Positions 36,746 through 41,023 of a stretch of 64,000 bases of DNA are shown in pieces. The stretch is taken from positions 620,001 through 684,000 of the forward strand of contig NZ_CP023860.1 in NCBI RefSeq assembly GCF_003326015.1, written 5' to 3'. Numbering within the stretch: position 1 is the stretch's first letter; the number at the start of each line of letters is the position of its first letter. The notes under the pieces were generated by a model that was not told where the DNA came from, searched no databases, and saw nothing but the letters and a program-made list of their open reading frames with translations. This stretch comes from Candidatus Thioglobus sp. NP1. Its GTDB lineage: Bacteria > Pseudomonadota > Gammaproteobacteria > PS1 > Pseudothioglobaceae. The translations under genes and the position numbers were made by a program.

Positions 36746-38218
36746 GTGTTATTTAATAGCTACATATTTATCTTGGTTTTCCTACCAGTATCCTTTTTTA
36801 TTTACTTTTACTTAAACCATAAAAAATTAATAATCCCAGCAAAATGCTCGCTTGTATTTTCAAGTTTATTTTTTTATAGTTGGTGGAATATTGTATATCT
36901 ACCATTGATTTTAGCTTCAGTTGTTTTTAATTATGCAATAGCTGCAAAAATAGTAGAGCATGGTAATTTAAAGAATAAATATTTTTCAAAAAAAATACTC
37001 CTTCAAATTGGGTTGGTATTTAATGTTGGATTACTTGCATATTTCAAATATGCTGACTTCTTTATATCTAATACTAATAGCTTAATTAATTCAAATATAG
37101 CTCTGCTGTACTTAACTTTGCCTCTTGCTATAAGCTTTTTCACTCTACAACAGATTGCATTTTTAGTAGATAGCTATGAAGGATTAGCAAAAGAAAAAAA
37201 CTTCTTAGACTATACAATATTTGTAACATTCTTTCCTCAGTTAATTGCAGGCCCAATTGTGCATCATAAGGAAATGATGCCACAATTCAGAAACATAAGA
37301 AATAAACTCAAAAACTATAATAATATAGCGATGGGTCTTTTTATATTCAGTATGGGGCTCTTCAAAAAAGTTGTTATTGCTGATACCTTCGCAATATGGG
37401 CGACCTCAGGATTTGATACTGCAACTTCATTAAATTTACTTGAAGCTTGGTTTACAAGTTTATCTTATACATTCCAACTTTATTTTGATTTTTCAGGTTA
37501 TACAGATATGGCCATCGGGGCCGCTTTATTATTTAATATTAAATTACCAGTCAACTTTAATAGTCCATATAGAGCTACTGGAATAATTGATTTTTGGAAA
37601 AGATGGCATATAACATTATCAAACTTTATAACTGTGTACATCTATACTCCATTAGTAAGATCGTTTAATCAGCTCACATTTCATAAGGCGATGATTGCTA
37701 CTTTTGTTACATTCTTAATAGCAGGCCTTTGGCATGGTGCTTCTTGGATGTTTGTGATATTTGGTGGGTTGCATGGCCTAGCATTAGTGGTAAATAACTA
37801 CTGGAAAAAAACCAAAATAAAAATTAATAAAATTTTAGCTTGGTTTATTACCTTTAATTTTGTAAATATCACTATGGTATTTTTTAGAGCTGAAGAATGG
37901 GATGATGCTATTAAAGTTTTGAGCAGTATGTTTAGTTTGGATAATATTATGTTGCCAAATATATTAGAAAGCGTACTGCCATTTTTAAATAAGTATGGTG
38001 TTGAGTTTGGTTGGGCTACTCAAAATATACAAGGAAAATCCTTTACGCTTATTTTCTTGATTATTGGGTTTATTTTAGTTTTGTTTTTTGAAAACTCCAG
38101 TAAAAAACTAGATAACTTTAAACTAAATTTTATTAATAGTTTTATTTTTGTAATGGCATTTACAATTTCAATTTATAAACTTAGTGGCTATTCTGAGTTC
38201 TTATATTTTAGGTTTTGA
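36746..38218 (+). CDS. MBOAT-family O-acyltransferase (DltB/AlgI-like)
   Basis: 490 residues with about 10-12 membrane spans. The family core is clear: FFPQLIAGPIV, YFDFSGYTDMAIG, FWKRWHITLSNF, and the catalytic His pair at H330 (GLWHGASW) and H343 (GGLHGL). GTG start one base after the VOC stop. MBOAT proteins of this type pass an acyl group from a carrier to an extracytoplasmic polymer, with the SGNH-like partner encoded next. The ACP upstream suggests a carrier-bound donor. Confidence 0.93.
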   Translation: MLFNSYIFILVFLPVSFFIYFYLNHKKLIIPAKCSLVFSSLFFYSWWNIVYLPLILASVVFNYAIAAKIVEHGNLKNKYFSKKILLQIGLVFNVGLLAYFKYADFFISNTNSLINSNIALLYLTLPLAISFFTLQQIAFLVDSYEGLAKEKNFLDYTIFVTFFPQLIAGPIVHHKEMMPQFRNIRNKLKNYNNIAMGLFIFSMGLFKKVVIADTFAIWATSGFDTATSLNLLEAWFTSLSYTFQLYFDFSGYTDMAIGAALLFNIKLPVNFNSPYRATGIIDFWKRWHITLSNFITVYIYTPLVRSFNQLTFHKAMIATFVTFLIAGLWHGASWMFVIFGGLHGLALVVNNYWKKTKIKINKILAWFITFNFVNITMVFFRAEEWDDAIKVLSSMFSLDNIMLPNILESVLPFLNKYGVEFGWATQNIQGKSFTLIFLIIGFILVLFFENSSKKLDNFKLNFINSFIFVMAFTISIYKLSGYSEFLYFRF

Positions 38219-38220
38219 TT

Positions 38221-39789
38221 ATGAATAAAAATATAAGGTGGTTGCAGTATTCAATTGGATTGATTTTATTAATAATCTCATTAATTTCCTTCTTTAATTA
38301 CAAAGTTGATAGTTCGGGTATTTTTGGACATTCTAACTATTTATCAAAAGCGGCAAAAGCTTTAACAAGTGGGAAAATGGTAGCGGGACTTCAGAACATT
38401 GATGATAGGTTATTTCAAGAATTAATAATAAGAAACTTACGAGTTCGCAATGATGTTATTGCTATTGGATCGTCAACAACTATGCATTTGAGAAAAGGAG
38501 TTATTTCAAAAGACAGAATCAATTTTTTCAACCATTCATTAAATGGTGCAAGTTTAGAAGATTATATTGCCATTGTTGGGGCTTATGAAGTAATGCATGA
38601 CTACTTGCCTTCAACTGTTATATTGGGGGTTGATCCTTGGGTTTTTAATAAAAATAATGGCCAAGGTAGATGGACAGGTTTAAAGCAGTATCATGATTAT
38701 GAATTAGATAAAATATATGGTGAAGGGCTTAATAGTAGAAGTAATAGTAATGTTACTATTAATGCTATTAAATGGAAGCAATTAATTAATTTTGACTATA
38801 CAGTGTCGAATATAAAGTTTATTATTAGAGCTTTATTAAAAAATGAAAGCAATAATCCCCCATTACCTTTAAAGGAGATTGAAAATACTGAAATTGTTGA
38901 AACTCTTATCAAGAGCGACCTTGAAAAACTAACTGATGGTGAATTAATACTAAAGGCTATAGGTTCTGGAAATGCCAATAAAATAGAATTTGGTGGCCCT
39001 CAGGCGCTTGATCCCAATGTACCAAGCTATGAAAAAGAACTTGCAAACAGAGAGGAATTGATTGACATACTTGTAGAACTTTCAAATTGTAAACCTTTTT
39101 CTAAGTGCGACCTTGAAAAACTTGATGATCGTGAATTAATACTAAAGGCTATAGGTTCTGGAAATGCCGATAAAATAGAATTTGGCGGCCCTCAGGCACT
39201 TGATCCCAATGTACCAAGCTATGAAAAAGAACTTGCAAACAGAGAAGAATTGATAGAGGCGCTTGAAGGATTGAGTGAGGCTCTTCTAGAACCTAAACAA
39301 GAAAAAATTCTTACCAATAACTCTAAGTTTTATGTTGTAGATACTATTGACATTGATGATTTTATTAGAGTAGATGATGGTTCAATATATTATCCGTATG
39401 AAAAAAGGTATATAAATAATGACCAAGTTAAACAGCATGCTATAGCTTTTGCAAAAGCCACCAATCCCTACTCTTTAGGAAAATTCAACAGTTTGAACAA
39501 TATAGAATTGTTTGAAGATTTTGTTAGTTATTTGAAATTAAATAAAGTAGATGTTATTTTATTCTTGCCACCCTATAATCCAATTGCGTATGATTTGCTA
39601 ATAGAAAATAACAAATACAAGCACATATTGATAGCAGAAAAATACTTAATAGATTTTGCCAAGCTTAATAATGTCGATTTAAAGGGTTCTTACAATCCAC
39701 ATAAGTATAACTTAGCTAATGAAGACTTTTTTGATGGCGTACATGGACGTGATCAGGTCTTAAAAGAAATTTTCCAGCCTGTCTTATGA
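38221..39789 (+). CDS. SGNH-like MBOAT partner (AlgX/AlgJ type) carrying two inserted repeats
   Basis: 522 residues. N-terminal membrane anchor (about 9-27, SIGLILLIISLISFF), then an SGNH-like periplasmic domain: VIAIGSSTTMHL (nucleophile Ser in GSST), HSLNGASLEDYI (block with Asn), ILGVDPWVF, and C-terminal FFDGVHGRD (D-x-x-H, catalytic Asp/His). Residues 232-345 are two tandem copies of a 50-residue unit that also occurs in the unrelated protein downstream; without them the protein has the normal size of about 400. ATG 38221 preferred over TTG 38215. Partner of the MBOAT protein in acylating the polymer. Confidence 0.82.
   Translation: MNKNIRWLQYSIGLILLIISLISFFNYKVDSSGIFGHSNYLSKAAKALTSGKMVAGLQNIDDRLFQELIIRNLRVRNDVIAIGSSTTMHLRKGVISKDRINFFNHSLNGASLEDYIAIVGAYEVMHDYLPSTVILGVDPWVFNKNNGQGRWTGLKQYHDYELDKIYGEGLNSRSNSNVTINAIKWKQLINFDYTVSNIKFIIRALLKNESNNPPLPLKEIENTEIVETLIKSDLEKLTDGELILKAIGSGNANKIEFGGPQALDPNVPSYEKELANREELIDILVELSNCKPFSKCDLEKLDDRELILKAIGSGNADKIEFGGPQALDPNVPSYEKELANREELIEALEGLSEALLEPKQEKILTNNSKFYVVDTIDIDDFIRVDDGSIYYPYEKRYINNDQVKQHAIAFAKATNPYSLGKFNSLNNIELFEDFVSYLKLNKVDVILFLPPYNPIAYDLLIENNKYKHILIAEKYLIDFAKLNNVDLKGSYNPHKYNLANEDFFDGVHGRDQVLKEIFQPVL
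38914..39063 (+). repeat. In-frame 50-residue repeat unit, copy 1
   Basis: Encodes residues 232-281 of the SGNH-like protein, with the core ELILKAIGSGN, then KIEFGG and PSYEKELANR. The repeat period to copy 2 is exactly 192 bases (64 codons, 14 of them linker). The 33-base stretch coding ELILKAIGSGN is identical in all three copies. Predicted helix-turn-strand with acidic helices; no known domain recognised. Confidence 0.85.
39106..39255 (+). repeat. In-frame 50-residue repeat unit, copy 2
   Basis: Second tandem copy in the SGNH-like protein. It differs from copy 1 at 4 of 50 residues and about 9 of 150 bases, so the tandem duplication is recent relative to copy 3. Reading frame is preserved across the junction. 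Starts CDLEKLDDRELILKA and ends ANREELI. Confidence 0.85.
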
Positions 39790-40048
39790 AGAGGTGATAA
39801 TATTACTTATAGTCAAAATCATATTTTTTTTCAGACTCAATTTTTCTGTTCTTTAGAATTATATAAATTCTATAATCTTTATAAATTAAAATGAGCAAGA
39901 GATAAAGATAACTATTATTCCTATTAAGAGGGATAAATTTATAAAGCTCGAGATTACTAGTTCTTTAGGAATTAATAATTAATTCTTATAATGTTATAAT
40001 GAGGCTAAATTTAAACCCCTTGTTATAATTATTCAATCAATAACTAAT
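39790..40048. other. 259-base AT-rich intergenic region
   Basis: No ORF. It contains two perfect short palindromes, AGAATT-ATATA-AATTCT and a 17-base GAATTAAT-A-ATTAATTC (39969-39985), and ends in the promoter-like segment described separately. It divides the acyl-decoration module from the DUF3108-like gene. Confidence 0.5.
39969..40000 (+). promoter_or_regulatory. Candidate promoter with overlapping palindrome
   Basis: TATAAT at 39995-40000 with TTAATA at 39972-39977 (17-base spacing, 4 of 6 match to TTGACA). The -35 lies within a perfect 17-base palindrome (39969-39985) that could be an operator, though AT-rich palindromes also occur by chance. It would start transcription of the DUF3108-like gene about 40 bases upstream of its ATG. 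Confidence 0.35.
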
Positions 40049-40936
40049 ATGAAAAGATATTTTATTTTTATTTTTATTTTTATCTTGTCTTATGCGCTTC
40101 CTGTTCATTCAATTTCTTCTTATAAAGCCAGCTATGACTTATATGGACAAACTGACTTAGGAAATATTAAATTTGGTAGTGCTGAATATGAATTAATCGT
40201 AGCCAATAATGCATATGTTTTTACTAGTAATGCAAAGACAGATAAACTATGGAGTGCAATATATGATTACTCAATAATTGAAACTAGTATTGGTTTAATA
40301 GAAGATAATAAATTAATTGGTGATTATTACAAAACTATTGAAAATCAAGGCGACTCAATTAGTGAAAATTATGAAATTAATATATATCCTAATGAACGTT
40401 ATGCCAAAGTAAACAATGCAATAATTGGTAATATTTTTACCAAAAGTACCCTTGAAAAACTTTCTGATAAAGAATTAATACTAAAGGCTATAGGTTCTGG
40501 AAATTTCACTAAAATAGAATTTGGCGGCAGTCAGGGGGGTAACCCTGATATACCAAGTTATGCAAAAGTACTAGCTAATAGAAAAGAATTAATAGGTGTG
40601 CTCCTTGAGTCTCTATGGGAGAGTAAATCTTATAATATAGTTGATACGCTTAGTGTTTATCTTCATATTTCTGAAGACATTCAAAAAGATCCAAATAAAA
40701 AATCGTTTTTTTACCAAATAGTTGACAAAAAAGGTGTAACTGAAAGAGAGTTCATTATCGATGGTTTTGAAACTATCATTATTGACAATAATGAAGTCGA
40801 AACTATTAGAGTTATAAGTCCAAAATTAAGGCTGGTTTTTAACATTTCTAAAGACCATAATTTTATACCAATTTATATTAATAAAACGAATGGAGAGGCC
40901 AACTTCGAACTCGTTTTAACAGATTACACACAATAA
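40049..40936 (+). CDS. DUF3108-like exported protein with an inserted repeat
   Basis: 295 residues. A signal peptide is clear: KRYFIFIFIFILSYALPVHS (about 1-21). The mature part resembles DUF3108 periplasmic proteins: YKASYDLYGQTDLGNIKFG, then SAIYDYS, and, after the insert, VDTLSVYLHI and FFYQIVDKKG... typical of the family's C-terminal half. Residues 133-182 are copy 3 of the 50-residue unit found in the upstream SGNH-like protein, lying just before the conserved DTLSVYL strand; removing it gives about 240 residues, the family's normal size. DUF3108 function is unknown. Confidence 0.75.
   Translation: MKRYFIFIFIFILSYALPVHSISSYKASYDLYGQTDLGNIKFGSAEYELIVANNAYVFTSNAKTDKLWSAIYDYSIIETSIGLIEDNKLIGDYYKTIENQGDSISENYEINIYPNERYAKVNNAIIGNIFTKSTLEKLSDKELILKAIGSGNFTKIEFGGSQGGNPDIPSYAKVLANRKELIGVLLESLWESKSYNIVDTLSVYLHISEDIQKDPNKKSFFYQIVDKKGVTEREFIIDGFETIIIDNNEVETIRVISPKLRLVFNISKDHNFIPIYINKTNGEANFELVLTDYTQ
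40445..40594 (+). repeat. In-frame 50-residue repeat unit, copy 3
   Basis: Encodes STLEKLSDKELILKAIG up to ANRKELI in the DUF3108-like protein. 36 of 50 residues match copy 1, with no gap, while the host proteins are otherwise unrelated. The divergence is concentrated in the middle (GGSQGGNPDIPS versus GGPQALDPNVPS). This is strong evidence for a transferable coding unit. Confidence 0.85.
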
Positions 40937-40991
40937 GATAAACAGGAGTTTCAATCCATATTATAATGTTTTTTTTAAAGTAAACTACTTT

Positions 40992-41023
40992 TGTGAAGTC
41001 TAAAATTTGTGAAGTCTAAAATT
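40992..41023 (+). repeat. Exact 16-base tandem duplication at a gene start
   Basis: TGTGAAGTCTAAAATT occurs twice in a row (40992-41007 and 41008-41023). Each carries a GTG. The first GTG (40993) opens a frame that stops after 8 codons; only the second (41009) opens the oxygenase gene. Because 16 is not a multiple of three, the duplication moves the original upstream start out of frame, and no good ribosome site is seen before 41009. Confidence 0.8.

Follow-up and report, generated by a model that had tools for sequence, protein, structure and literature searches.

A Pal-linker-type domain that has probably spread in frame into envelope proteins of Candidatus Thioglobus

How does one peptide unit come to lie, in frame, in two otherwise unrelated exported proteins? 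The question is raised by two genes in the window (the whole 64-kb stretch of DNA analyzed here), both on the + strand, as are all the window features given below. The first host (ORF 38215..39789) lies 3' of an MBOAT O-acyltransferase gene (36746..38218; Pfam MBOAT, 8.1e-33), which carries no unit; it is an exported protein that reached the cut-off of no Pfam or NCBIfam family, and the name SGNH-like was given to it in a preliminary description made from the sequence alone. The second host (ORF 40049..40936) is an exported protein assigned to the DUF3108 family through its homolog in genome G006, which scored above the Pfam DUF3108 cut-off (26.9 vs 26); the host itself had no Pfam DUF3108 match.

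The three in-frame copies of the preliminary description were found where it had placed them, including the tandem pair with its 192-base period. Unit 1 (38905..39084) and unit 2 (39097..39276) lie in the SGNH-like host and unit 3 (40436..40615) in the DUF3108-family host, each being 60 codons long. Recomputation returned the same 46 of 50 identical residues for unit 1 and unit 2 and 36 of 50 for unit 1 and unit 3 (50 and 39, respectively, over 60 columns), together with a 33-mer that is identical in all three units and starts at 38941, 39133, and 40472. The BLOSUM62 local score of unit 1 against the DUF3108 unit was 190, while 500 shuffles of the SGNH-like protein, scored against the DUF3108 protein, gave a mean of 44 and a maximum of 88, and the similarity of the units is therefore far beyond chance. 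Once the units had been removed, the two hosts scored 46 against that shuffle mean of 44, in agreement with the earlier statement that they have nothing else in common. The unit had, however, been drawn too short at 50 residues, since it consists of a 60-residue core plus linkers, and a block of about 411 bp (38905..39315) recurs with 3 mismatches and unrelated flanks in a third gene, which encodes an O-antigen ligase (G000:C1:598400). The left linker of the SGNH-like host (NNPPLPLKEIENTEIVET, 38851..38904) is similar to the sequence that flanks the LptD unit of the relative G028, and the right linker (EALLEPKQEK..., 39277..39315) is also present in the O-antigen ligase copy and resembles the LptA linker of the relative G014. 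In the DUF3108-family host, alignment with an empty ortholog (G028:C38, L056) delimited an insert of 189 nt, or 63 codons (40427..40615; coordinates read off the sequence).

The count of three copies, real as they are, also proved too low. The complete set in the organism's own genome, a single contig of 1,689,404 bases (1.69 Mb), amounts to eight copies in five genes, none with an internal stop. The five further ones are the tandem pair in the ligase gene, one in an LptM-like lipoprotein (named from a sub-threshold match, 18.8 vs a cut-off of 27.3), and two shorter and divergent ones in Pal, the lipoprotein by which the outer membrane is anchored to peptidoglycan. A DNA search of this genome for non-coding copies gave 27 matches at E<=10, of which the 4 significant ones were all coding and the rest had E>=0.3. 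Among relatives, the unit was found in LptA of one genome (G014) and in LptD of two (G014 and G028) at differing sites, the second repeat in G028 LptD being degenerate. Genomes outside the genus (g1, Candidatus Thioglobus) yielded no convincing unit match: a six-frame profile search of 369 gammaproteobacterial genomes, the own genome included, hit seven others (E 3.8e-5 to 0.0098), and these hits were judged to be chance, as they covered 16-28 of 49 profile positions and the strongest contained two stops. The same judgment was passed on a match in G094 from the family search (E 0.0096, one stop) and on L010-L014, which comprise an unrelated protein of 720-724 residues and an ORF of 60 residues that runs opposite to the frame of an ABC transporter; all of these were kept outside the unit set. 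No relative of the unit was found in viral contigs, in plasmids (DNA search), or in phages (protein search).

As the preliminary description had suggested, orthologs of both hosts were compared, and the DUF3108 and nearest SGNH-like homologs turned out to be without the unit, which is thus standard in neither host family. In all, five of the six hosts other than Pal have homologs that lack it (DUF3108, LptA, LptD, the Wzy_C ligase, and SGNH-like). DUF3108 offers a clean 63-codon empty site, and no DUF3108 gene contains the unit in any of the 24 further genus genomes that gave a match. It is likewise missing from 22 of 23 LptA genes (11 of those 22 viewed in alignment), and among 12 aligned LptD sequences only those of G014 and G028 carry it. 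The nearest Wzy_C homologs have no unit, the ligase homologs used being 23-26% identical. The empty site of the SGNH-like host is based on one weak genus homolog (29%), a 384-residue protein (G019, L100), with which the host is co-linear only after removal of the block; the global score then rose from 61 to 189. Both proteins keep the GSS and DxxH segments, here read as motifs. In the 369 class genomes, this host was found in none but the own genome at E 1e-6. Of the earlier alternative, a different coding insertion element or a mobile domain, it is the second half that these empty host homologs and the further unrelated hosts support.

Related units in Pal of most genus genomes examined were invisible to the reading of the window alone. 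Pal contains one to four such units, partial ones counted, in 17 of 29 genus genomes (profile matches with E 1e-8 to 3e-3, the profile already including the G017 Pal units); Pal of G001 and G020 contains none, and in the sister genus, where 49 of 54 genomes gave a Pal match, none was seen either. The Pal units are without the insertion of about 11 residues that marks the long form. A tree was built from 30 units over 60 columns (49 for the short form) with midpoint rooting; it excluded degenerate or partial Pal pieces, several near-duplicate Pal units, the degenerate second LptD repeat of G028, and both ligase units, which are almost the same as those of the SGNH-like host. The eight non-Pal units used grouped with G17 Pal unit 2 (UFBoot 100; 99 without that Pal unit). 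Homology and this common group place the unit in the family of Pal linker repeats of Candidatus Thioglobus, from which it differs by the insertion of about 11 residues. In the own genome, the other copies have closer relatives than the Pal units there, so that the account also needs interspecies transfer or else an old duplication followed by loss. The direction of copying is not proven, because the tree has 60/49 columns and is midpoint-rooted, and G17 Pal unit 2 may have been on the receiving end.

AlphaFold predicted unit 1 (m2b1b56d4d7c1, pLDDT 92.9) to be a compact helix-extension-helix mini-domain with helices at residues 3-7, 11-20, and 49-59. The tandem model repeats this pattern twice at a mean pLDDT of 66.6; its left linker is mostly of low confidence (pLDDT <50 at residues 3-18), and its fold matches are weak (best Z 3.9; SAP domain 2rnn, Z 2.7). 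No well-known domain emerged, a possibility that had been raised beforehand: over the unit no Pfam family reached its cut-off, counting the searches in which cut-offs are given. The best NCBIfam match had E 0.026 and the best match of a PDB sequence profile search E 0.32, and Foldseek gave no PDB match at E 0.001. By its model, the unit is faintly Rho_N/SAP/LEM-like. The LEM domain of emerin (6ghd_H) matched the model with Z 4.9 and an rmsd of 1.7 across 41 aligned residues (Foldseek E 9.8), 12 of 30 units matched Pfam Rho_N at E<=1 (best 0.0015), and two of 30 matched SAP (0.015). These matches are weak, however, and other families do equally well or better over the units, such as T2SS-T3SS_pil_N (5 of 30 units, best 0.00065) and DUF7120 (1.1e-5 for the G017 pair, slightly below its cut-off), while the G017 Pal pair stayed below the cut-offs of Rho_N (14 bits vs 24.9) and LEM (11.1 vs 24). 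In addition, phrog_2724 of PHROGs was matched by 11 of 30 members (best E 0.0007), and in a viral Foldseek search the best match was a phage protein (E 0.3), three of the 50 matches listed being named Rho termination factor N-terminal domain. The partners of the Rho_N/SAP/LEM group are nucleic acid or chromatin, whereas the hosts of the unit are exported and the units mostly acidic (net charges counted as -6, -7, and +1 for units 1-3, and as -8 and -10 for the own Pal units).

Taken together, these data suggest that segment copying probably carried a Pal-linker-type domain, in frame, into envelope proteins, mainly those linked to LPS. The unit would then be a small helix-extension-helix domain, able to fold by itself and belonging to one family with the tandem beads in the Pal linker, and Pal would be its source. 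A unit variant, later about 11 residues longer, would have been copied as coding DNA with a variable linker flank into LptD, LptA, the LptM-like lipoprotein, the DUF3108 protein, the O-antigen ligase, and the SGNH-like acylation partner. The route may have been homology-poor recombination or gene conversion; a transposase is disfavored because the ends differ between insertions and neither terminal inverted repeats nor stray non-coding copies were found. Such copies may persist since the bead would fold alone and tolerate N-termini, loops, and linkers outside the cytoplasm, where it may serve as a spacer or contact module.

That every host looks exported or membrane-bound could not be seen from the two genes of the window. 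By an N-terminal hydrophobicity heuristic, seven of seven host families passed, compared with 57 of 214 ORFs from 12 sampled stretches of 20 kb; in a stricter version (17 residues at >=1.9) six of seven passed and LptD failed. The chance of 7/7 at 27% is about 1e-4, and that of 6/6, if Pal is the source, about 4e-4, the hypothesis having been formed after the hosts were seen. It is possible, though on balance unlikely, that the bead is a selected adaptor with a binding partner in the periplasm, taken up several times by proteins of the LPS pathway. The concentration on that pathway (LptA, LptD twice at different sites, LptM-like, the O-antigen ligase, and the probable O-antigen acylation partner) speaks for it, as do the confident fold model and dN < dS in 14 of 15 unit pairs, the exception being SGNH_u2/LptM (dN 0.334, dS 0.329). 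Against it, the prominence of LPS proteins was noted only once the hosts were known, each non-Pal insertion was seen in one or two genomes, LptA and LptD, although essential in other bacteria, do without the unit in the other genomes seen, and the partner is hypothetical. A point against the Pal-linker reading itself is that the two copies of the recent 411-bp block differ at three positions, each change being non-synonymous, so that they give no sign of selection since the latest copying. Rather doubtful is a related reading, namely that a periplasmic adaptor bead born or amplified in Pal is being written, by in-frame copying of segments both within and between species, into the LPS export and O-antigen machinery as a shared docking or spacing module.

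We consider it distinctly unlikely that the DNA spreads selfishly and in frame in the manner of Rickettsia palindromic elements, its peptide being merely tolerated. Those elements are coding units of about 150 bp, described as lying in frame in unrelated genes (PMC10969869). The unit does work like them, with its small size, unrelated target genes, and clean empty sites in orthologs, and the purely non-synonymous changes in the most recent pair would suit a tolerated peptide; yet it does not qualify as one of them. Its DNA has neither a palindromic fold nor a stable hairpin, in keeping with the earlier remark that the copies are not obviously palindromic: fold z-scores were 0.66 (unit 1, RNA), 0.07 (unit 3, RNA), and -0.13 (411-bp block, DNA), that is, no excess DNA or RNA folding. 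Imperfect inverted pairs of 10-18 nt (82-92% complementary) occur in three of four regions, away from common unit ends, so that no terminal inverted repeats of the MITE or transposon kind were seen, and the DUF3108 region (40400-40640) has no inverted pair of at least 10 nt. The insertion ends are ragged, differing between sites and having varying linkers; the one candidate for a target-site duplication, a TGG at both ends of the DUF3108 insert (by eye), may be chance, and the other sites are too diverged. Also against a selfish element, the own genome contains no non-coding copy by DNA search and no copy with stops, the hosts are all exported or membrane-bound by the hydrophobicity test, and the family is shared with the repeat in one host gene, Pal. 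The GC content of the inserts (about 38% and 36%, vs 29% and 26% in the rest of the hosts) is near that of the sampled genome (35%), and composition is therefore no sign of a foreign source. In codons 13-18 of the long unit, identical codons were used in 103 of 120 same-residue pairs vs 438 of 653 in the rest, which codon preference could cause. PARCEL elements, as outlined in PMC2996958, are likewise coding repeats that stand in tandem in proteins targeted to membranes, and horizontal transfer and intragenomic shuffling have been proposed for their spread. By that outline, however, they are 25-residue units whose DNA has dyad symmetry and whose ORFs have no assigned function, whereas the Thioglobus units have 48-60 residues, no dyad symmetry, and identifiable envelope genes as hosts.

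That the unit is a normal co-linear part of the two host families and was lost from other members is very improbable: nothing was found in its favor, the empty sites contradict it, the unit is absent from the genus homologs of DUF3108, LptA, LptD, SGNH-like, and Wzy_C except the named carriers, and a near-identical block stands in two non-homologous genes. An assembly or binning artifact is scarcely credible: the genomes of the relatives G014, G028, and G017 are in draft form, but that of the organism itself is a single contig, the reading frames run through the junctions, and independent genomes carry the same family in different genes.

Domain shuffling in bacteria is usually inferred from ancient fusions. 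The spread of the Pal-linker-type domain would be a rare visible case of a protein domain moving through genomes, in a marine bacterium, since a single marine genus presents recent and older insertions, empty sites, a candidate source in Pal, and intermediate forms. It offers a test case of whether in-frame coding insertions, best known from the Rickettsia palindromic elements, can spread as folded, selected domains. With LPS transport and O-antigen proteins so prominent among the hosts, Pal and LPS assembly may also be connected in a way open to testing, and if the bead is indeed an adaptor, a bacterium with a small genome would here be showing domain shuffling as it happens.

The preliminary description had claimed three in-frame, gapless copies of one peptide unit, and these were recovered as modules of 60 codons at 38905-39084 and 39097-39276 of the window (units 1 and 2, in tandem within the gene of an SGNH-like exported protein downstream of an MBOAT gene) and at 40436-40615 (unit 3, in the gene of a DUF3108-family exported protein). 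The residue identities (46/50 and 36/50) and the 33-mer identical in all three (at 38941, 39133, and 40472) were reproduced, and the two hosts indeed shared nothing else, scoring 46 versus a shuffle mean of 44 once the units were removed. A protein search of the organism's own genome, a single contig of 1,689,404 bases of which the window spans 620001-684000, revealed six copies, those outside the window being a tandem pair at 598409-598768 in an O-antigen ligase gene (Pfam Wzy_C, 6e-13) and a single unit at 116857-117012 on the minus strand, which lengthens a small lipoprotein weakly resembling LptM (18.8 bits versus a cut-off of 27.3). A profile search added two shorter copies at 1149749-1150045 in Pal. 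The frames of all eight copies were open, with no stops, and the four significant places found by DNA search were all coding. The ligase and SGNH-like pairs, 60 kb apart, aligned in register over about 411 bp (3 mismatches), between unrelated flanks. Within the long unit, codons 13-18 (window positions 38941-38973 and the equivalent segments of other copies) were identical in 103/120 same-residue pairs, versus 438/653 elsewhere, which may reflect codon preference or local gene conversion. A perfect 16-base tandem repeat (2.1 copies, 40990-41023) lies directly downstream of the DUF3108 gene.

Among relatives, the unit profile matched 19 of 83 family genomes at E ≤0.01, namely 18 of the 29 in the genus Candidatus Thioglobus and one outside it (G094); the latter match, whose reading has one stop, was judged to be due to chance. 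Carriers among the relatives included Candidatus Thioglobus AH-558-E04 (G014), whose LptA has one unit and whose LptD has two, in each case directly after the signal peptide; Candidatus Thioglobus AH-558-A21 (G028), whose LptD has one internal unit plus a degenerate second copy; and G017, an uncultured gammaproteobacterial bin with two units in Pal. A search of 369 gammaproteobacterial genomes gave no convincing match except the own genome; among the genomes searched, the unit was seen in this genus only.

A comparison of host orthologs, as the preliminary description had proposed, yielded homologs without the unit for both window hosts. DUF3108 was matched in 25/29 genus genomes, with the unit in the window copy only, and the AH-558-A21 ortholog (69% identical) was shorter by 189 nt, with no host residue missing in the alignment. 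Neighboring DUF3108 paralogs without the unit were seen in G028:C20, G017:C52, and G021:C5. The one SGNH-like homolog (G019, 384 residues, 29%) became co-linear once the block was removed, the score rising from 61 to 189. In the ligase, the block, located before a conserved HN[DA]Y segment, was missing from two homologs (23-26% identical). LptA carried a unit in 1 of 23 genes, the other 22 being open frames of 162-168 residues (11 of them viewed in alignment). LptD was matched, in part incompletely, in 22/29 genomes; in a 12-sequence alignment the carriers were AH-558-E04 and AH-558-A21, and the own-genome LptD had no unit. One LptD with many in-frame stops (G009:C4, 709-711 kb, L155) is a pseudogene or a sequencing error.

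The most widespread host was Pal (own locus L106, G000:C1:1149578-1150417; others L107-L126), in which the lipidated N-terminus is joined to the OmpA domain by a linker that can carry beads of the predicted helix-extension-helix type. Units were present there in 17/29 genus genomes, with one to four per carrying protein, counting partial ones (zero to four across the genus, differing between species); that of G016 was degenerate. Pal of G001 and G020 had none; of the remaining ten genomes, two had a partial Pal and eight gave no Pal match. Among the sister-genus genomes, 49/54 had a Pal match, at most over query residues 134-279; the unit profile matched nothing there apart from G094, and the eight Pal proteins viewed in alignment had no units. 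In a phylogenetic tree, the eight non-Pal units used formed one group with the second G017 Pal unit (UFBoot 100; 99 without the latter, 67 for the long form), and the first G017 Pal unit fell among other Pal units. The non-Pal units therefore belong to a single family that is linked to a Pal unit. Outward spread from Pal is the simpler reading of direction, though no proof of it. Since the closest relatives of the non-Pal units were not the own-genome Pal units, either between-species transfer or an old duplication with loss is implied.

The fold prediction suggested earlier was run with AlphaFold2 (9 units; pLDDT 92.9, pTM 0.77) and gave three helices (3-7, 11-20, and 49-59) with an extended stretch linking them; in the tandem model (mean pLDDT 66.6, ends of low confidence) this pattern occurred twice. 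That the unit might be a well-known domain found no support, as no Pfam family reached its cut-off over it, where cut-offs were printed. Foldseek against the PDB returned nothing significant. Weak matches hint at a possible relationship with the helix-extension-helix group: Rho_N was matched by 12/30 units at E ≤1 (best 0.0015) and SAP by 2/30, and the emerin LEM domain, re-aligned to the unit model, superposed over 41 residues with rmsd 1.7 and Z 4.9. However, T2SS-T3SS_pil_N was matched by 5/30 units, its best E (0.00065) being better than that of Rho_N, and the G017 pair scored just under the DUF7120 cut-off (25.7 versus 27). Among long-unit pairs, dN was below dS in 14/15 (exception, 0.334 versus 0.329), which indicates that the peptide was constrained at some stage; in the newest copy pair, the 411-bp block, 3/3 differences were non-synonymous.

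As to mechanism, a transposable element with fixed ends is the less favored explanation. The SGNH-like copy shares its left linker (NNPPLPL...) with the AH-558-A21 LptD copy, and its right linker with the ligase copy, resembling the AH-558-E04 LptA linker; thus, the insert ends vary case by case. A similar loop (NFPPL...SGKIDEDKI) occupies the place of the AH-558-A21 insert in the unit-free LptD of G021. At this site, the LptD proteins of G021:C30 (L137/L158) and AH-558-A21 (L136) have an extra insertion, PPL...SGKxDEExI...NYGRN, enlarged by the unit in the latter. As the preliminary description had stated, the copies are not obviously palindromic: inverted pairs were imperfect (10-18 nt, 82-92%), not at common ends, and not found in the DUF3108 copy, and unit sequences folded no better than shuffles. 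Taken together, these features favor the copying of coding segments, which would proceed by recombination.

The closest known phenomena are Rickettsia palindromic elements (PMC10969869), which behave alike at the gene level, and PARCEL (PMC2996958), but the unit belongs to neither. A literature search gave, among the matches listed, no description of the unit or of mobile domains in Thioglobus. A bias in hosts, noticed after the fact, was that all seven families (Pal, LptA, LptD, LptM-like, DUF3108, ligase, and SGNH-like) passed an N-terminal hydrophobicity test, versus 57/214 sampled ORFs (6/7 versus 56/214 with a stricter test), and 5/7 have names or contexts that connect them with LPS. Insert GC (about 38% and 36%) was near the sampled genome value of 35%, compared with 29% and 26% in the rest of the hosts. 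Of the two alternatives proposed earlier, a different coding insertion element or a mobile domain, the second is supported: the unit, a non-palindromic mini-domain with a predicted fold, is a member of the Pal-linker family and has spread in frame among envelope proteins, and we lean toward a tolerated spread with occasional benefit.
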